A DNA stretch of 64,000 bases from Nocardioides seonyuensis. Its GTDB lineage: Bacteria > Actinomycetota > Actinomycetes > Propionibacteriales > Nocardioidaceae. The stretch lies in the NCBI RefSeq assembly GCF_004683965.1, contig NZ_CP038436.1, positions 2,418,001-2,482,000 on the forward strand, written 5' to 3'. Both the position numbers and the translations under genes were made by a program. Below the pieces are notes generated by a model that saw nothing but the letters and a program-made list of their open reading frames with translations, was not told where the DNA came from and did not search any database. Positions 1 through 9,477 of the stretch are shown in pieces (position 1 is the first letter of the stretch; every line of letters begins with the position of its first letter).

Positions 1-576
1 GTGTTTCATTCGGAGGCGGACTTCCAGTTCGAGTTCGCCCGGGCGGTGGTGGCGCTGGATGACTCGATCGACATCCGGTTGGAGGTGCCCAAGCGCACTG
101 AGACCGCGCGCACGTACGTCGACTTGGTGTGCGTGGGCGACCGGACCAGTTTGATCGAGTTCAAGTACGTCACCCGGTCGTGGCAGGGGCACGATGGTCG
201 TACCCCCGAGAAGTTTGATCTGCGCAGTCACGAGGCCCTCGATCTTGCACGGCTCCACTTCATCCATGACGTGACCCGGTTGGAGGGCTGGGTGGCCACG
301 GACGCGAACACCGACGGGTTCGCGGTGTTCCTGACCAACGACAGCCGACTGTGGGGGCGGCCAAGCACCTCCCGGGTGACGCGGGACCAAGCGTTTCGGC
401 TGCACCAGGACCGGACGTTGTCGGGCGACCTGCGCTGGGGCACCCCAGAGAAGCGATACCCGAGGAACGACCGACCGTTGCGCGGGACTTACACCGCCGA
501 TTGGTGCGACTACGGGACGCTCGATGACAAGCCGGGCGGGACTCTGCGGTGGATGGGCTGGCACGTCACTTCCTGA
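1..576 (+). CDS. PD-(D/E)XK nuclease-like protein
   Basis: This 191-residue protein has the core of a PD-(D/E)XK nuclease fold. D41 begins a hydrophobic strand (YVDLVCVG), a turn follows, and the next strand ends in I-E53-F-K55, giving the D...ExK triad. Restriction-enzyme-like hypothetical proteins of this type often continue with a region resembling the FDLRSHEALDLARLHFIHDV stretch seen here. The frame opens with GTG at base 1, so the true start may lie outside the window. The gene faces the Tni-type operon and stops 20 bp from it. It could be a TnsA-like end-cleaving partner, a defence nuclease cargo gene, or unrelated. The fold is fairly secure; the role is not known. Confidence 0.55.
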   Translation: MFHSEADFQFEFARAVVALDDSIDIRLEVPKRTETARTYVDLVCVGDRTSLIEFKYVTRSWQGHDGRTPEKFDLRSHEALDLARLHFIHDVTRLEGWVATDANTDGFAVFLTNDSRLWGRPSTSRVTRDQAFRLHQDRTLSGDLRWGTPEKRYPRNDRPLRGTYTADWCDYGTLDDKPGGTLRWMGWHVTS

Positions 577-596: not shown

Positions 597-1298
597 CTAT
601 TGGTCGTGCTTTATGTTGACCGGGTTCAGGGACTCCAGTACGTCGGCTGACGGGACGTAGTGCCGGTTCGCGTCTTCGACGAGCACTCCGGCCTTGAGGA
701 GGGTGGCGATGTTGACGCGGTCAGGGTTGGACAGGCTGTGCGGACTGATTGGTGTGCGCGCCGCTCGATACAGGATCTTCGTGCGAGCCGGGGTGACGAG
801 TCGTTGGGTGCCTTTCGTGCGTGGGTGGCGGCGGACCTTCAGTTCGGCGTCGGTGTGAAGGTCGTCTTCGGGTCGGATGGACATGAGCCCGGAGTTACGG
901 AACACGGTCATCCCCGCAGGGGCGAGCAGGCGAGTGAGGTCGTCTGCCGCCTGGTGGACTCGGGTTGGGGACCAGTCCAGGGCGTCTGCGAGTGCGGTGA
1001 CAGGGGTGGCTTGCCCGAGTGCGTTGAGAAGAGCGCCGAGCCGTGCGTGGTCGGGCGACGGGTCCGGTGCTGGCGTGTTGTCGAGGTCGTCGGTGAACAG
1101 GTGCCCTATGGGGACCTGCAGGCGGTCGGCGAGTCGAACGAGCGCGGCAACGGACAGGGTGCTGAGTGTGGGGTCGTCGCTGGTTTCGAGGCGGTTGAGG
1201 ACGCCAATCTCGATGCCGCAGTCGCGAGCGAGTTGCCGCACGGCGAGGCCTCGGGAGAGGCGCAGGGTGATGAGGCGCTGCTGGTCGATGGCGGTCAT
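597..1298 (-). CDS. XRE-type HTH regulator, last gene of Tni-like operon
   Basis: The 233-residue protein starts with a lambda-repressor-like helix-turn-helix: residues 5-60 contain the RLSRGLAVRQLARDCGI and VLNRLETSDDPTLSTLSV segments, followed by LVRLADRLQVPIGHLF, a standard XRE ending. The middle (about 85-140) looks like a second winged-helix module (ALADALDWSPTRVHQAADDL). The ATG overlaps the TGA of the upstream gene by 4 bp (ATGA), so it is translationally coupled to the transposition genes. It may repress the operon or supply target-site DNA recognition. No family member with known function was recognised. Confidence 0.6.
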   Translation of the reverse strand: MTAIDQQRLITLRLSRGLAVRQLARDCGIEIGVLNRLETSDDPTLSTLSVAALVRLADRLQVPIGHLFTDDLDNTPAPDPSPDHARLGALLNALGQATPVTALADALDWSPTRVHQAADDLTRLLAPAGMTVFRNSGLMSIRPEDDLHTDAELKVRRHPRTKGTQRLVTPARTKILYRAARTPISPHSLSNPDRVNIATLLKAGVLVEDANRHYVPSADVLESLNPVNIKHDQ

Positions 1299-2527
1299 GC
1301 GAGGCGCTCCAGTTTCACGATGCTGGTGGGGACGCGACGGCTGGCGATGCTGTGAGTCTCATTCAGGACGGCCTCGCCGATGTTGAGGTCGAGGTCAACG
1401 GCGGCCTGTCGTAGGTCGAGCAGGACACGCCGGTGGTTGCCCGGGAACGCCGGATCATCTGGTGCGGCCCCTTCCACGGCGCGGGCGAGCAGGACCGCGC
1501 GGAGGAAGGGCGCTGCTTCCACGGGGACGTGCCGTCCGGCGATGGGGTGGCGCGGGTCGTTGTGCCATTGAGCGAGGTCGTCAACCGTGGTGGCGCGGAT
1601 GGCTTCTGGGGTGGCTTCGCCCAAGTAGAGCGCGACGGTGCCTGCGCGGGTGGGTTCGTAGTAGGCGCGCAGTCGGTCGTAGAGGTCGGGGGTGGTCTTG
1701 GAGGGTGGGAACCGGATGAGGCCGTTGCGGAGTTCGCGTTCGTCGATGTCAAGGAACCAGCCGTGCTGGTGGTAGGCGGCTTGGGCGGCTCGGGTGACGA
1801 CGGTGACCTTGTCGAAGGTGGTCTGCTCCTCGATGAGTGTCTTGATGGAGTCGTGGGCAAGCGCAACCGTCAGGTTCTGCCGGGCGGTGTCGAGCGTGCG
1901 GAGCCAATCGGTGAGGCGCTGCATAGTGGAGCAGTACAGGTCGTGCACGGGCGCGAACTCGTCAGGGCGCAGTTGCCGCTTGGCAGTGGCGTAGAACGCC
2001 CAGTACTCGATGGCGGGGAGTGTCGGTTCGGCCTTGTGCCAACCTCCCACCGTGCGGATGGGGGTGATCGGAGCCTCGGCGGAGTGGGTGGCTGGAAGAG
2101 CGGGCCAGTCGACAAGGGTTGGGGCCGCCGACGCGAGGTCGCGGTACAGGCGGGTGGCATAGCCGTGATCGGTGGCGAACAAGATGTTCGTTGCGGTCGG
2201 TTGGGCCATCTCCACCAGGGCAAGCAAGTCTTCGACGGGTGTGCGCTGGCACGCGGCGACGACGAGCAGGCGAGTGCGGTGTGCGTTGAGCCAGATGGGC
2301 AGGACCTCGGCGATGCCAGTGGTGTTGCGTGGCTTGCCGGTGACGTCATCGCGTTTCCCGAGCGCGGACAGGACGTCGCTGGCGATGCCCGCCTTTCCGG
2401 TGCGGTCATGCGTGGGCACGAACACTACTGTCGACAGGTCCGTGGTAGCGATGCGTCCGATGTCTGTGACTGGCGCACCGGCCGGGGACTCGGTGACCAT
2501 CACCGGATGGTCGAGGGGAGTGTTCAC
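1295..2527 (-). CDS. TniB-like pseudo-ATPase with novel C-terminal module
   Basis: This 410-residue protein lies between tniB and the XRE gene, starts with GTG and overlaps the tniB stop (GTGA). No named family was recognised. Its first 145 residues line up by eye with the TniB ATPase core: a degenerate P-loop (THDRTGKAG, 39-47) where TniB has GPVGVGKTT, a hydrophobic strand ending in VVAACQ (89-94) where TniB has the Walker B LLIDDA, and ILFATDHGYATRLYRDL (115-131) matching TniB's sensor strand and the following helix. The Walker B acidic residues are missing, so ATP hydrolysis is unlikely. The remaining roughly 260 residues are unrecognised and have no zinc-finger cysteines, so this is not TniQ. 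Its position suggests a target-selection or accessory subunit; that is inference. Confidence 0.5.
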   Translation of the reverse strand: MNTPLDHPVMVTESPAGAPVTDIGRIATTDLSTVVFVPTHDRTGKAGIASDVLSALGKRDDVTGKPRNTTGIAEVLPIWLNAHRTRLLVVAACQRTPVEDLLALVEMAQPTATNILFATDHGYATRLYRDLASAAPTLVDWPALPATHSAEAPITPIRTVGGWHKAEPTLPAIEYWAFYATAKRQLRPDEFAPVHDLYCSTMQRLTDWLRTLDTARQNLTVALAHDSIKTLIEEQTTFDKVTVVTRAAQAAYHQHGWFLDIDERELRNGLIRFPPSKTTPDLYDRLRAYYEPTRAGTVALYLGEATPEAIRATTVDDLAQWHNDPRHPIAGRHVPVEAAPFLRAVLLARAVEGAAPDDPAFPGNHRRVLLDLRQAAVDLDLNIGEAVLNETHSIASRRVPTSIVKLERLA

Positions 2528-3375
2528 TGGGAACCTCGCGGCATCATCCCGAGCAGGTCGGTGACCTCGTCATCGGTCAGGGGGCGGGGGGTGGTGTCGC
2601 CGCCCCGGAAGATGGTCATGAGGTCGAAGAACTGAGCCCAACGACGGATCTCGCCGCGGAAGTAGCGGGTGTCGATGGCCTTGATGGTGGCAGCGTCGGT
2701 GCCAGCGATCGCCGGTTCCATGGCGAGAACTGCCTCGACCAGCGGCTTGCCTGCCAGTGGCGCTGCCGCGTACCTAGTGCCTGCGCGGGAGAGGAGTTCG
2801 GGCAGGGTTTGGCTGAGGTGACGTTCGAGGTTGTTCCCGCACAGCACGATGGGGGTTCCGACACCACGTGCGGTGTGGATGCGGTTCCAGATGCTGAGGA
2901 TGGGCGCGAGCCCTTTGAGCCCGACGTGGTGTGCGTCGTCGATGAGCAGCGTCATCTGTTTGCGGTTGAGGGTGTCGAGGATGTCGTCGCGAATCTGGGC
3001 GGCGGTGCCGACGCCGCGGGTGCCGGTCATTGCGGTCCAGATGGCGTCCATCTGATCGCGTGAGGTGCTGGTGCCGAACATGTTGACGTAGACGGCGTCG
3101 GCTCCGATGCCTCTGGCGGCTTCAACCACAGCGGTGGTCTTGCCGACGCCGACGGGGCCGTCGATGAGGCAGCAGCCGCCGGTGCGGATCGTCAACTGCA
3201 CAACGACACCGACGCCCTTGACGATGTTCGTCGGGACGTAGCGGGTGGGCCGCACGGGCAGAGTCCCACCGATGTTCACCACCGTCGAACCTGGGCTCGC
3301 CGCACTCGACTGGCCGGTCGAGTGCGCTGTTGCGTCCGGGGTTGCTGTGTCTGGCAGGTCGGTGGTGGCCGTCAT
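2524..3375 (-). CDS. tniB: TniB/TnsC-type AAA+ transposition ATPase
   Basis: This 283-residue AAA+ protein has Walker A GPVGVGKTT (73-81), Walker B LLIDDAHH (143-150) and a sensor-1 strand IVLCGNN (176-182), the pattern of TniB/TnsC/IstB-type ATPases that license target DNA for a DDE transposase. The longer open frame extends upstream, but the ATG at 3375 is preferred: it overlaps the tniA stop as ATGA and gives the usual TniB length. The first 45 residues are Ser/Thr/Ala-rich and probably disordered. The C-terminus overlaps the next gene by 4 bp. The family assignment is strong; the symbol is by family, not by experiment. Confidence 0.85.
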   Translation of the reverse strand: MTATTDLPDTATPDATAHSTGQSSAASPGSTVVNIGGTLPVRPTRYVPTNIVKGVGVVVQLTIRTGGCCLIDGPVGVGKTTAVVEAARGIGADAVYVNMFGTSTSRDQMDAIWTAMTGTRGVGTAAQIRDDILDTLNRKQMTLLIDDAHHVGLKGLAPILSIWNRIHTARGVGTPIVLCGNNLERHLSQTLPELLSRAGTRYAAAPLAGKPLVEAVLAMEPAIAGTDAATIKAIDTRYFRGEIRRWAQFFDLMTIFRGGDTTPRPLTDDEVTDLLGMMPRGSQ

Positions 3376-5030
3376 GCTGCACCTTCTTCGTCTGGGTCGG
3401 GTTGGGGGTTCTGGCTGAGGCGGTCCTCCCACCTTTCGAGGCGGTTGCCGGATAGGGACGAGCCGAGGGTGTCGGAGTAGGCGACGGCGCTGTCGATGAC
3501 GTCGGCGAGGTCTACTCCGTCGGGAATCTCGGGGAGGTCCGGAACGGCGGTCTCGTCCTCGTCGGGGTCGGGCGGAAGGAGTGGCCATTCGGACTCGTCG
3601 ACGCCTTCCTCGCGCAGTCGAGCCCGTTCGTCCTCCACGCGCTGTCGGTCGGCCAGACGGGTGAGTCGTTCGGCTTCGCGGCGCTGCGCGGCGCGAACTG
3701 CCAGAACACCGAGGCGGTGGTGCTCGGACTGCACTGTCGACTTCGAGGCTGTGCATGCCCACTCGTCGCCGACGAACACCTCGATGTGGTGGCGGTCGTG
3801 CTCGTGGTAGCGAATGTTGACTGTGTCGACGTTCTCCTTGCGAAGTCGGGCCAGCGTGGGGTGGCCGTAGATCGCGCCGCGGATCTCGATGCCGTAGTGG
3901 TGGAGTCGTCGGCTGACCCGATGGGACATGGCGTTCACGATCGTGGTTTGGTCGGCGGCGGCGACGGGCTGGTCATCCTCTGCCCATGCCTCCAGTGGAG
4001 TCCGTCCACTGAGAGCGGAGTGGACACGGTTGTTGTACTCGCCGAAGAAGTCGCCCAGTCGCCGATCGAGCGTCTCCAAGGTGAGCAGGGACGTGACCGG
4101 TACGGGTGTGTGAAGAGCCCGACGGGTGTAGTCGTCCTCACCGCCGGGGTGGAACCCCGGAATATCGGGGGCGAAGTCCCGGTCGATGGTGCCGTTCAAG
4201 CGTTCAACGCGCCCGTTCTGCCACGACGAGTACGGCTCGGTGAACTGTCGCCCGATGTCGAGGTTGATCAGGTTCGCTGAGAGCGCCTCAGAGATGTAGT
4301 CACCACCCCTGTCGGTGCGCAGAAACTCGGGCTTGCCGCCCACGAATACGCCCTCGGGTGTGTACCACCCACGGATGCCTTCGGCGAGCAGGTCGATGTT
4401 GTCCTGGCTGTTCGGGGTGTCCGCGGTCAGGAGGTACGCCATCGCCAGGCGCGTCTTGAGGTCCACCAAGACGCTGAGCCATGGCCAGATGGGTTGGGCT
4501 CCCCGTTCGGTGGGCAGCACCCGGATGGGCAACTTCGTGTGGTCGGTGCCGTAGGCGTATCCCCGGTAGGGGACGTGTTCTACGTTGAAGTACTGATGCT
4601 TGACCATTTCCCGGTAGCCGCCGCGTGCACATGCGCGCAACGCCTCCGGCCATTCGTTGACCCTCCGCTGAAACCCCCGAAGGCTGAGACCGTCAGGAAG
4701 AACCCCCGCCATCTTGAGGTCTTCGTAAGCCTTGGCGGCAACGCCTCGGCACTTGAAGTACGCGACCTTGGCGCGGTCCTCGTCGGGTAGACACTTCTTG
4801 TACGTGCTGCCGGGCCGCTGCGCAACGGTCCGGGTCGCCCGGAACTGGCGCAGCATCTTGGACAGGTGGTCAGGATGCACGCCAAGGTGACCTGCGACCT
4901 CGACGAGTACGACGCCCGGGATGTGCCCCAGGTCATCACGAACCCTCGACAGGTGCTCCAACGCTTCGCGGCGCTGCCCGATCGAGGACCGGCTGGTCGA
5001 GCCGGTCATGTGGATAGATGTCACGCTCAT
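3372..5030 (-). CDS. tniA: TniA/TnsB-type DDE transposase
   Basis: This is the DDE transposase of the element (552 residues). An N-terminal helix-turn-helix region (about 25-65) is followed by an rve integrase core with D163 (YGTDHTK), D240 (LRTDRGGDY) and E276 (WQNGRVERLNG); the D240-E276 gap gives the DD(35)E spacing. A Mu-transposase-type beta-barrel region follows, ending in an acidic tail (DPDEDE, DPDEEGAA) that in this family usually contacts the TniB partner. A GTG at 5036 is possible, but the ATG at 5030 sits better behind an AGGAGGAG ribosome site. The gene is first in a four-gene overlapping operon. Only 83 bp separate it from the IS3 copy, so its native promoter and transposon end may be displaced. 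Confidence 0.88.
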   Translation of the reverse strand: MSVTSIHMTGSTSRSSIGQRREALEHLSRVRDDLGHIPGVVLVEVAGHLGVHPDHLSKMLRQFRATRTVAQRPGSTYKKCLPDEDRAKVAYFKCRGVAAKAYEDLKMAGVLPDGLSLRGFQRRVNEWPEALRACARGGYREMVKHQYFNVEHVPYRGYAYGTDHTKLPIRVLPTERGAQPIWPWLSVLVDLKTRLAMAYLLTADTPNSQDNIDLLAEGIRGWYTPEGVFVGGKPEFLRTDRGGDYISEALSANLINLDIGRQFTEPYSSWQNGRVERLNGTIDRDFAPDIPGFHPGGEDDYTRRALHTPVPVTSLLTLETLDRRLGDFFGEYNNRVHSALSGRTPLEAWAEDDQPVAAADQTTIVNAMSHRVSRRLHHYGIEIRGAIYGHPTLARLRKENVDTVNIRYHEHDRHHIEVFVGDEWACTASKSTVQSEHHRLGVLAVRAAQRREAERLTRLADRQRVEDERARLREEGVDESEWPLLPPDPDEDETAVPDLPEIPDGVDLADVIDSAVAYSDTLGSSLSGNRLERWEDRLSQNPQPDPDEEGAA

Positions 5031-5113: not shown

Positions 5114-5142
5114 TGTCGCGTGCCGGGTCTGATGGAGGCTCT
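5114..5142 (+). repeat. IS3 left inverted repeat
   Basis: This 29 bp terminal repeat reads TGTCGCGTGCCGGGT, then 4 mismatched bases, then TGGAGGCTCT. It pairs with 6417-6445 on the opposite strand. Confidence 0.88.
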
Positions 5143-5165
5143 CATTCCACGGAAGGATGAGAGTC

Positions 5166-5486
5166 ATGGCAGCACCGAGGAAGTACCCCGAGGAGCTTCG
5201 GGAGCGGGCGATCCGGATGGCGGTCGATCTGCGGCGTGACCCCGCGACCAGGAGCGGCGCGTTGCGTCGGGTGGGTGAGCAGCTCGGGATCAACCCCGAG
5301 ACGCTGCGCAACTGGGTCCAGCAGACCGAGATCGACGAAGGTCATCGCCCCGGTGTGACCAGTGATGAGGCGAAGCGGATCGCCGAGCTCGAGCGTGAGG
5401 TCAAGGAATTACGACGGGCGAACGAGATCCTGCGGACGGCGTCGGCTTTTTTCGCCGCGGCGGAGCTCGACCGCAAGCTGAAGTGA
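5166..5486 (+). CDS. IS3-family transposase OrfA
   Basis: This 106-residue DNA-binding subunit of the IS3 transposase has the typical MAAPRKYPEELRERAI start, a helix-turn-helix (VGEQLGINPETLRNWVQQ) and a C-terminal leucine-zipper helix (IAELEREVKELRRANEIL). The ATG at 5166 is preferred over the one at 5157 because the GGAAGG ribosome site ends directly at 5157, leaving it no spacing. A -1 slippery heptamer near its 3' end would allow an OrfAB fusion. The length is normal and the gene looks intact. Confidence 0.9.
   Translation: MAAPRKYPEELRERAIRMAVDLRRDPATRSGALRRVGEQLGINPETLRNWVQQTEIDEGHRPGVTSDEAKRIAELEREVKELRRANEILRTASAFFAAAELDRKLK
5447..5453 (+). promoter_or_regulatory. Programmed -1 frameshift heptamer (T TTT TTC)
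   Basis: The orfA codons read GCT TTT TTC here, so the heptamer TTTTTTC is in the X XXY YYZ phase needed for tandem -1 slippage. orfB lies in the -1 frame. IS3 elements make their active transposase by this kind of fusion. No stimulatory stem was assessed. Confidence 0.7.
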
Positions 5487-6430
5487 CCACCGCGGTGCTG
5501 GTCGACTATATCGACCAGCACCGCGACCAGTTCGGGGTCGAGCCGATCTGCACCGTCCTGCGCAAGGCCGGGACGCCGATCGCCCCGAGCACCTACTACG
5601 CCGCCAAGACCAGGCCACCGTCCGCGCGGGCGGTGGCCGACCAGGGTCACCTGGAGGTGATCCGGCAGGTGCACGCCGACAACTACGGCGTCTACGGGGT
5701 CCGCAAGATGCACGCCGAGCTGAACCGGCGCGACCACCGGATCGCCAGATGCACCGTGCACCGGCTGATGCGCGGCGACGGGCTACGTGGGATCAGTCGG
5801 GCCAAGGGCCCCAGGACCACCGTGCCGGGTGCCGGCCCGGACACCCGGCCGGACCTGCTGGACCGCGACTTCAAGGCGCCGGCACCGAACCGGGTCTGGG
5901 TCGCCGACATCACCTACTGCCGCACCTTCGCCGGCTGGGTCTACGCCGCGTTCGTCATCGACGTCTTCTCCCGCCGCGTGGTCGGGTGGCAACTCTCGAA
6001 GAGCCTGCGCACCGACCTGGCCCTGGACGCCCTCGAGATGGGGCTGTGGACCCGTCAGCACGCCGGCCAGGACACCACCGGGGTGATTGCGCATTCGGAC
6101 AAGGGAGTCCAGTACCTCGCCGTGCGCTACACCCAGCGGCTGGCCGAAGCCGGGGCCGTCGCGTCGGTCGGATCCACCGGCGACTCTTACGACAACGCCC
6201 TGGCCGAGGCGTTCAACTCGCTGTTCAAGGCCGAACTGGTCCGCAACAAGGGCCCGTGGAAGAACATCGACGACCTCGAGATCGCGGTCGCGGAGTACAT
6301 CGACTGGTTCAACCACCGACGTCTGCACGGCGAGATCGGACTCGTTCCTCCGGTCGAGTTCGAGGAGCAACACGACAGGCACAACCCCGCACCGGCTACC
6401 GTCGGCGCGTTAGTTCAGAGCCTCCACTGA
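5483..6430 (+). CDS. IS3-family transposase OrfB
   Basis: This 315-residue catalytic subunit has an HTH_21 region (YGVYGVRKMHAELNRR, 68-83) followed by the rve core with D142 (VADITY), D206 (HSDKGVQY) and E242 (NALAEAFNSL), a DD(35)E triad complete for activity. The GTG start overlaps the orfA stop (GTGA), giving a separate OrfB as well as a frameshift fusion. The C-terminus has the usual WFNHRRLHGEIGLVPPVEFE motif. The stop lies inside the right inverted repeat, as is common in compact IS elements. Confidence 0.92.
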   Translation: MTTAVLVDYIDQHRDQFGVEPICTVLRKAGTPIAPSTYYAAKTRPPSARAVADQGHLEVIRQVHADNYGVYGVRKMHAELNRRDHRIARCTVHRLMRGDGLRGISRAKGPRTTVPGAGPDTRPDLLDRDFKAPAPNRVWVADITYCRTFAGWVYAAFVIDVFSRRVVGWQLSKSLRTDLALDALEMGLWTRQHAGQDTTGVIAHSDKGVQYLAVRYTQRLAEAGAVASVGSTGDSYDNALAEAFNSLFKAELVRNKGPWKNIDDLEIAVAEYIDWFNHRRLHGEIGLVPPVEFEEQHDRHNPAPATVGALVQSLH

Positions 6431-7056
6431 ACCCGGCACGCGACATTCTGCTCCTCACCCTTTGCCCACCGTCGGTGAGCAGGCACCACTCGACGGCGAA
6501 CGAAACTCATGAACGTGGCGCTCGATCTAGCGTCGGTCGCGAGGGGTGTCGAGGTCTCGTGCAATCGCTGCCACAGCGTGTCGTCAGGCACCCGCCATGA
6601 CAAGAGTTCTGTTACGACGGACAGTACGAATTGCTCGGCGCGGTCAAGTAGACCCCCATCGAGCAGCCTTCGCACCTCCAAGATGAACTCGTCGTCCCAC
6701 GGCAGGTGACCTCCGTCGCTCCCTCGCAGACGGGCAACGTGCCACTGGGATAAGGCTGCGACTGCAGCCTGCTCCCGCGCAACTCGATCCCGCTCCCGCG
6801 CCTGCCGCGCCAGCCCGGCAGCCGACTTGGCCAACCGCGCCTCGGAGCGCGCCCGCTGCGCTGCGCCCTTCGCCTCCTGTGTCTGTGGCGCAGCCGCCGC
6901 CTTCGGCGCCGCACGCCTCTTCCGTGAGACCCGAGCCTGCCTGAGGGCATCGACCCTGGCCTGCTCTTCGGCGCTCAATGGCGGCTTTGTCTCGCGACGA
7001 TTGCGTCCCACCCCGCCATCATCCACGAGACAACGCCCGCGCGTGGTCAGTGACAA
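6415..7056 (-). CDS. Hypothetical protein, 3' end replaced by IS3
   Basis: No family was recognised. The N-terminal half is highly charged and Ala/Arg-rich (AEEQARVDALRQARVSRKRR; ARLAKSAAGLARQARERDR), probably helical or disordered. The second half (WDDEFILEVRRLL onward) looks globular. The last ten residues (VACRVQWRL region) are encoded by the IS3 right inverted repeat, so the original C-terminus has been lost. The start is uncertain: TTG 7056 gives the longest form, while GTG 7026 or 7011 are alternatives without a clear ribosome site. The DNA is visibly less GC-rich than core genes. Confidence 0.45.
   Translation of the reverse strand: MSLTTRGRCLVDDGGVGRNRRETKPPLSAEEQARVDALRQARVSRKRRAAPKAAAAPQTQEAKGAAQRARSEARLAKSAAGLARQARERDRVAREQAAVAALSQWHVARLRGSDGGHLPWDDEFILEVRRLLDGGLLDRAEQFVLSVVTELLSWRVPDDTLWQRLHETSTPLATDARSSATFMSFVRRRVVPAHRRWAKGEEQNVACRVQWRL
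6417..6445 (-). repeat. IS3 right inverted repeat
   Basis: This is the right end of the IS. Read on the minus strand it starts TGTCGCGTGCCGGGT and matches the left end at 25 of 29 positions. The last codons of the neighbouring minus-strand gene lie in it. Confidence 0.88.
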
Positions 7057-7686: not shown

Positions 7687-7742
7687 ATCCGACCTGTCGT
7701 CCGATACGCCATCCGACTGTCGTCCGACACTCAACAGGTCGG
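7687..7742. repeat. Candidate Tni-element end: paired direct repeats
   Basis: Two imperfect copies of about 20 bp sit side by side: ATCCGACCTGTCGTCCGATA at 7687 and ATCCGACTGTCGTCCGACAC at 7711. They share TGTCGTCCGA, and the second core (TGTCGTCCGACA) is nearly palindromic. A 9 bp inverted pair flanks the set: CCGACCTGT at 7689-7697 and ACAGGTCGG at 7734-7742. Short direct repeats beginning TGTCG are what Tn7/Tn5053-type transposases bind at element ends. The position, just before a truncated chromosomal gene, fits a right end. This is an inference; no matching left end is in the window. Confidence 0.4.
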
Positions 7743-7756
7743 GGCCCTTCGTATAG

Positions 7757-8251
7757 GAGCTTGCCCTGCGCAACACCCGGCAGATCCACGACGCGTTCGC
7801 TCCGCTGGCACCCTCGCGGATGTACGCGCGCGGCGGTGACGGCGTCGACGTACGTTTCGTGCCCTGCTCGGTCGACGATGCCATCGAGACGGCCGACGAC
7901 TGCGTCGACCAGCTCCTCGACGACGGCTGGGGTTCCGCCGACGTGTGCCTGCTGACCACCGGGCACCGCCACCCCGTGCAGGTCGAGCGCACGGACTTCC
8001 ACGACCAGGACGGTTACTGGGGCACGTGGTGGGACGACGACGTCTTCTATGGCCACGTCCTCGGGTGCAAGGGGCTCGAGCGGCGTGTGGTTGTGCTCTG
8101 CCTCAACGAGGACGGCAGCCGGGACCGTGCCCGCGAGCGGTTGTACGTCGGCATGTCGCGCGCGACCGACGTACTCGTCGTGGTGGGTGACCCTGAAGCG
8201 GTGCGTCGCGTAGCTGGTGAGGACGTCGCGCGTCGGTTGGGGGTTTCGTGA
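7757..8251 (+). pseudogene. UvrD/Rep-type helicase remnant (5' truncated)
   Basis: Only the C-terminal part of a superfamily 1 helicase remains. The frame opens after a TAG with LALRNTRQIHDAF, a typical helicase motif ('RNTRQI'). It ends with YGHVLGCKGLERRVVVLCL and RERLYVGMSRATDVLVVVGD, the UvrD_C_2 region (motifs V-VI). Roughly the first two-thirds of the gene, including Walker A and B, are absent. An ATG at 7820 could start a 143-residue product, but it would have no ATPase site. The cut marks the junction between accessory DNA and the ancestral chromosome. Confidence 0.75.
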
Positions 8252-8943: not shown

Positions 8944-9477
8944 ATGACCGAGGAACAGCCCTACGAGGTCGTCGAAGAGCACCCCGACTTCGAGGTGCGG
9001 TGGTATCCCGAGCACGTCGTGGCCGAGACACGCGTGCAGGGATCGTTCGAGAGCGTCGGGAACAAGGCGTTCATGCGGTTGGTGGGGTACATCGGCGGGC
9101 GGAACACCGAATCGACGAAGGTGGCCATGACCGCCCCGGTGCTCCAGGAGCCCGACGAGCTGGGAGAGGGGCGGTACGTCGTCAGCTTCGTGATGCCGTC
9201 GGGCTTCGTCCCGGAGGATTCCCCGGAACCCACGAATCCGGACGTGCGGCTGCGCAGCGTCCCGGCGCACTGGGCAGCTGCCCGGAGGTTCTCCGGGCGT
9301 TGGTCGCGGGGACGTTATGAGGAGCACGCCAAGCGCCTCACGGAGGCCTTGGAGTCAGTCGGGCTCGAGGTGGACGGCCCTCTCCGGTTCGCGCGATTCG
9401 ACCCACCCTGGACGCCGTGGTTCATGAGGCACAACGAGGTCGTCGCACCGCTGCGGCCTCTCCCCGAGCAGGACTGA
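8944..9477 (+). CDS. SOUL-family heme-binding protein
   Basis: This 177-residue SOUL/HBP domain protein has the diagnostic sequence order: PYEVVEEHPDFEVRWYPEHVVAET near the start, FMRLVGYIGGRN, STKVAMTAPVLQE (the family's 'KIAMTAPV' motif), then SFVMPSGF and a final HNEVVAPL. SOUL proteins are soluble and bind tetrapyrroles; bacterial functions are poorly defined. It is transcribed away from the secreted-protein gene, and a SARP-type operator lies between them, pointing toward the other gene. Length is normal and the gene appears intact. Confidence 0.85.
   Translation: MTEEQPYEVVEEHPDFEVRWYPEHVVAETRVQGSFESVGNKAFMRLVGYIGGRNTESTKVAMTAPVLQEPDELGEGRYVVSFVMPSGFVPEDSPEPTNPDVRLRSVPAHWAAARRFSGRWSRGRYEEHAKRLTEALESVGLEVDGPLRFARFDPPWTPWFMRHNEVVAPLRPLPEQD

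Follow-up and report, generated by a model that had tools for sequence, protein, structure and literature searches.

How does a transposition module that carries no recognizable TniQ come to insert at one fixed place beside one gene? This question is raised by a locus in Nocardioides seonyuensis (contig NZ_CP038436.1), of which genome positions 2,418,001-2,482,000 (64,000 nt, hereafter the window) were analysed. Four genes lie there on the minus strand, namely tniA (5036-3372), tniB (3375-2524), a gene encoding a 410-residue protein (p410, 2527-1295), and xre (1298-597), and the 4-bp overlaps claimed between them in a first-pass annotation of the bare sequence were present at all three junctions. 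That annotation had read the locus as an undescribed target-selection module in which an inactive TniB paralogue and a helix-turn-helix (HTH) protein choose the site, a reading that is partly supported by the results below. The locus probably encodes the transposition machinery of a homing transposon of the Tn7 type that works without TniQ, with p410 replacing TniQ/TnsD.

The arrangement recurs in other actinobacteria, where the first pass had proposed to look for it, and a chance juxtaposition was ruled out by its recurrence in deep relatives (p410 21-41% identical to that of the window). Carriers of p410 made up 8 of 391 genomes of the order, 12 of 341 of the family, and 9 of 394 of the class (the host itself counted each time). 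The order and family searches together gave 13 distinct carriers with one p410 locus each, the extra rows for G511 (Nocardioides sp. B-3) and G483 being pieces of one locus. Homologues of tniA, p410, and xre stood in the window's order in all 13, and tniB was called by script in 10 (not called in G469, G483, and G339, without further search there), with a tniB-p410 overlap of 1 to 17 bp where start and stop were compared. The p410 gene was broken into pieces in B-3 and G483, and tniA was short in B-3, where nrdJ was split too and the assembly may hold frame errors. The xre gene encodes an HTH protein (HTH_31, E = 3.6e-5, just below the cut-off), and a search of PDB sequences with its profile matched, among others, SinR and the 434-repressor HTH. 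As a constant neighbour of p410 it may be a DNA-binding partner or a regulator; its homologue in G322 was recognised from its position and from its similarity to the G333 gene (E = 1.75e-4), not to that of the window. Protein searches returned 32 proteins for p410 (the window's own included, with Nocardioides sp. B-3 as the one named relative) and 39 for XRE, and 22 of the 32 contigs with p410 matches, own and P0031 included, recurred in the latter, indicating that the two genes travel together. When genome contigs were scanned with the close p410 family, a single locus came up, that of Nocardioides sp. B-3.

At class level, eight loci were found, of which six were annotated far enough; all six had tniA and tniB matches and four had a BLAST-called p410, and no xre homologue was detected in the six by BLASTP (E ≤ 0.01). 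Four class-level loci (L058, L059, L060, and L061) read tniA-tniB-p410 without a detected xre, and their p410 was more diverged than their TniB. In G888, four p410-like matches of equal score (E = 6.4e-10; L044, L045, L048, and L050) were located near both ends of two replicons (C1 and C2) in opposite orientation, as if within shared terminal inverted repeats of linear replicons.

TniA is a DDE transposase of the TnsB/MuA type with rve_3, rve, and Mu-transpos_C domains, and a TnsB_0_V-K match (E = 1e-7) marks it as TnsB-type; the catalytic residues D165, D242, and E278 were kept in 12 of 13 aligned TniA proteins, with only the short B-3 frame departing from this. Likewise, TniB is a TnsC/MuB-type AAA+ ATPase (AAA_22, E = 2.4e-13; TnsC_0_V-K, E = 5.3e-5) with intact Walker A and B motifs, and its GxxGxGKT and one Walker B acid were invariant in all 14 aligned sequences (nine family- or order-level elements and five class-level loci). 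The first-pass observation that no TniQ is seen at the locus was borne out. PF06527 (TniQ) had no match in 11 of the 13 carrier genomes, and a TniQ encoded elsewhere in the host was rejected on the same search, which covered the whole host genome. In the other two, the matches were distant from the element: in G322, two PF06527 matches lay at about 0.19 Mb and the element at 1.68 Mb, and in G483 one broken match fell below the cut-off.

In addition, a PD-(D/E)XK-like gene was present at the tnsA position in 10 of the 13 elements (seven aligned and three by tblastn). The seven aligned proteins showed an E...D...ExK pattern by eye, and none of the five scanned had a Pfam match. By tblastn the TnsA-like gene was not found in the window's element, in G351, or in G495, whose contig ends there. 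Since this gene was not found in the window's element, and an IS3-family insertion sequence (IS; 5121-6438, plus strand; NF033516, E = 3.8e-88, HTH_Tnp_1), with CGCG on both sides, sits inside it upstream of tniA, clean excision of the window's copy may no longer be possible.

The site, orientation, ends, and duplications of the elements are directly visible in the DNA. In the host, nrdR and nrdJ lie left of the window, and the left end of the element, TGTAGGACGACAG, starts 28 bp past the nrdJ stop, with its terminus at genome position 2416463, 1,538 bp before the first base of the window; four CGACAAGTGCC repeats come after it. The right end (7690-7729, minus strand) contains two CTGTCGTCC repeats (7694 and 7717) and the terminus ...CCGACA, positions 7717-7729 being an inverted copy of the left terminus. 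A target-site duplication, CTCA, occupies 7730-7733, with its other copy at genome 2416459-2416462 preceding the left end, and the element measures 9,267 bp. Joining the flanks yields a 12-bp hairpin stem after nrdJ, with the insertion in the loop and the right flank forming the 3' half of the hairpin.

Copies in other genomes were found to share targets, a check that the first-pass annotation had suggested. The gene adjoining the element was nrdJ in nine carriers (G000, the window's genome; B-3; G220; G148; G322; G351; G469; G333; and G483) and dnaB in two (G140 and G329), the neighbour in G495 was a 214-codon transglycosylase-like gene (named by eye from its translation), and no target was found for G339. 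The left end came directly after the stop codon in G148, G322, G351, G469, G333, and G483 at nrdJ and in G140 at dnaB, with offsets in G220 (6 bp), G329 (9 bp), and G495 (0-1 bp; the left-end start in G148, G351, G469, G333, and G495 being inferred from the repeat array); in B-3, the 3' arm of a hairpin holds the insertion, 39 bp beyond the end of nrdJ. The seven two-ended elements had duplications of 5 bp in five cases, GCTGA (G322 and G483), ACTGA (G140), CCGCG (G329), and TCGTC (G220), and of 4 bp in two, CTCA (G000) and TGCC (B-3). In G148, G351, G469, and G333, no right end was detected within 31-35 kb beyond nrdJ, and the G495 element is truncated by the contig end. The repeat-array end faced the target gene in all 12 resolved carriers, amounting to site- and orientation-specific insertion by a conserved gene, and in G220 the module was inverted inside the element. 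On these sequence comparisons, homing without a detectable TniQ is well supported in this family.

The genus survey found an nrdJ match in 57 of 59 genomes, the nrdJ end being recognised by pattern in 22 of 30 loci (own included), and most of these 22 ends showed, by eye, a hairpin shortly after the TGA. G218 matched the DNA that borders the G220 element at either end, and about 26 bp beside nrdJ differed. In the nrdJ region of G483 (L056 and L071), a second left end lay right after the right-hand GCTGA duplication of the first element, which suggests a tandem pair of elements at this nrdJ site. In G494 (L100), a left-end-like repeat array directly followed nrdJ, with no transposition module in the 39 kb examined; it would represent a remnant or a non-autonomous element.

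The candidate for the place of TniQ is p410, for which no Pfam, NCBIfam, or PADLOC match was obtained at E ≤ 1, and an unrelated enzyme was set aside on this result. Ten weak Pfam matches in the p410 family (e.g., CHAP, Gig2-like, DUF4902, and ANT), counted apart from the AAA_22 and HTH_23 matches, occurred in one member each and were taken as noise. Foldseek with the full p410 model gave no match at E ≤ 0.001, and a PDB-sequence profile search with the p410 alignment returned a single match, a receptor (E = 1.2). The structural check proposed in the first pass, an AlphaFold model, here compared with PDB structures, predicted an AAA+ fold of the TnsC/MuB kind for residues ~1-142, with MuB among the best fold matches. 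The sequence resemblance to TnsC/TniB-type AAA+ proteins is weak (global profile alignment with TniB, E = 0.02). By this alignment and predicted strands, the degenerate P-loop falls at residues 12-22, TESPAGAPVTD over the IDGPVGVGKTT of TniB. The Walker B (VVAACQ) and sensor (ILFATDH) positions given in the first pass agreed with the alignment, but THDRTGKAG, which it had taken as the P-loop, lies beyond the strand that comes next. Its claim that the ATPase residues are lost held at the Walker A lysine and the first Walker B acid, both missing in all 25 aligned p410 rows (window included), and at the second acid in 24 of the 25. That the N-terminal part of p410 is a TnsC/TniB-type AAA+ domain, and an ATPase-dead one, is well supported at the level of predicted fold.

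The remaining residues, about 260 of which the first pass had described as of unknown fold, are present as stated but resemble tyrosine recombinases in profile and PDB comparison, the best PDB row being MrpR. The box-I arginine position was never R in the 25 p410 rows, the window's p410 has LNET in place of the HxxR box (in the alignment reaching that box), and it ends before the tyrosine segment. An inactivated tyrosine-recombinase-like domain (~165-410) is reasonably supported as a predicted fold. The earlier term "inactive TniB paralogue" fits the N-terminal half, and p410 as a whole is predicted to be its fusion with this dead recombinase-like domain.

A mechanism can be proposed in which TniA would cut and join the DNA and TniB would form an ATP-dependent AAA+ filament that recruits TniA, with p410 taking the place of TniQ/TnsD. 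The recombinase-like domain of p410, with or without XRE, would bind the conserved 3'-terminal DNA of a host gene, which is nrdJ in this genome and dnaB or another gene in other branches. The pseudo-TnsC domain, devoid of the residues that bind and hydrolyse ATP, would join the TniB ring as a non-cycling subunit and would seed the filament at the target, after which TniA would insert the element, always in the same orientation, at the stop codon or immediately behind it. We infer that p410 (and xre) are candidate selectors and that p410 docks on TniB; p410 as selector would be the simplest account, since, once tniA, tniB, and the TnsA-like gene are set aside, no conserved genes other than p410 and xre are left to consider. 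Whether a single dead-TnsC/dead-recombinase fusion reads gene 3' ends (nrdJ and dnaB) and starts the filament as a pseudo-subunit, so that target choice in TniQ-independent homing could be transferred by swapping it, is close to an even call.

Several points weigh against a TniQ-free module with p410 as its selector. Completeness is 61% and 80% in two of the 13 assemblies, a strongly diverged TniQ would escape a PF06527 search, and the p410 of G329 keeps a D at the second Walker B position. Benler et al. (2021) report TniQ in 73-97% of elements per clade (PMC8649781), so its lack alone is not unheard of; the same source describes an uncharacterised, Actinobacteria-dominated clade, while Faure et al. 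(2023; PMC10293859) describe tniQ/tnsD as ubiquitous within the Tn7 branch.

The selecting could instead be done by XRE, with p410 as an adaptor between XRE and TniB, like TniQ in CRISPR-associated transposons (CASTs), and its recombinase-like domain binding protein or non-specific DNA. XRE has an HTH, was found in all 13 family- and order-level elements, and is encoded by the last gene of the operon, but this division of labour is unlikely; the class-level loci without a detected xre, four of them with p410, speak against it weakly. Somewhat less likely again is that TniB or TniA themselves favour the site through composition, hairpin, or stop-codon context, p410 and xre being regulators of transposition. 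Two elements of the window's subfamily do sit in a hairpin after nrdJ, and NCTGA duplications recur at nrdJ and dnaB; however, insertions at three kinds of gene out of thousands, with one locus per genome, are hard to reconcile with such a preference, and a pseudo-TnsC domain would be odd in a regulator. Moreover, characterised homing Tn7-type elements rely on a dedicated target selector. Precedents for regulation are given by Xre proteins, described as regulators of I-F3 CASTs (PMC11406308), and by MrpR, described as a recombinase-fold repressor (PMC10516654); by analogy with the former, XRE may be a regulator only. It is highly improbable that the module is a relic and nrdJ a passive hotspot of island insertion: the IS3 and missing TnsA-like gene of the window's copy, the broken p410 of B-3 and G483 and short tniA of B-3 (possible frame errors notwithstanding), and the array left alone in G494 would fit lost mobility, but seven elements, including two at dnaB, have both ends and a duplication, and catalytic residues are conserved over deep divergence.

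Other features of the element and its surroundings include the 3' part of a 258-codon cargo reading frame (1-576, plus strand) that starts left of the window, inside the element, and has no Pfam match, and a 213-codon minus-strand frame (6415-7056) that overlaps the right edge of the IS3, continues inside the element, and likewise has none. A cargo gene with HAD_SAK_2 (E = 4.1e-9; L009:16708-17190) lies left of the window beside the nrdJ-side end. In the right flank, 7820-8251 encode an apparent C-terminal fragment of a helicase of the UvrD type (UvrD_C_2, E = 5.8e-6, narrowly missing the cut-off), and a SOUL heme-binding protein (E = 1.9e-46) is encoded on the host side at 8944-9477.

The family shares with Tn7 and TnsD/TniQ-type elements a TnsB-type transposase, a TnsC-type AAA+ protein, a 5-bp duplication in most cases, end repeats, and homing in one orientation downstream of a conserved gene, but differs in that no TniQ/TnsD is detected and the neighbours are nrdJ, dnaB, and one more gene. 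The tniA-tniB order and domain types are those of Tn5053/Tn402 (TniA, TniB, TniQ, and TniR). The latter encode TniQ as well as a resolvase and target res sites, whereas in the present family TniQ was not found and the insertion sites differ. MuA/MuB and IS21 IstA/IstB also pair a DDE transposase with an AAA+ partner without TniQ, although they are not known to home in this manner or to carry a second gene for a pseudo-ATPase. Tn7 is described as homing downstream of glmS (PMC2918618). TnsF of Tn6022-like transposons is described as using an inactivated tyrosine recombinase domain in target selection (PMC10293859), alike in kind to p410 by this description only, but has N-terminal zinc fingers and works with TniQ, where p410 has an AAA+-like N-terminus and no TniQ detected near the element. 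Some type V-K CASTs have a TnsC reported to be without canonical Walker motifs (PMC11406308); there the loss is in TnsC itself, and here a degenerate copy is fused to another domain beside an intact TniB. MrpR (YopR) of prophage SPbeta is, like p410, recombinase-like, having a tyrosine-recombinase fold, but is a DNA-binding phage repressor with lost recombinase function (PMC10516654), without an AAA+ domain or a transposition link in the part of its description consulted. No printed description of a family such as this was found in titles and abstract openings, subscription papers and most preprints being outside that scope.

TniQ is regarded as the general link of target recognition to TnsC in Tn7-like elements, and a lineage that homes without it would, if the proposal is true, represent a second solution to this link. 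A pseudo-ATPase within an AAA+ ring would likewise provide a direct handle on the localised start of a TnsC filament. Furthermore, the 3' ends of nrdJ and dnaB are added to the natural landing sites of such elements and could serve site-specific insertion in actinobacteria.

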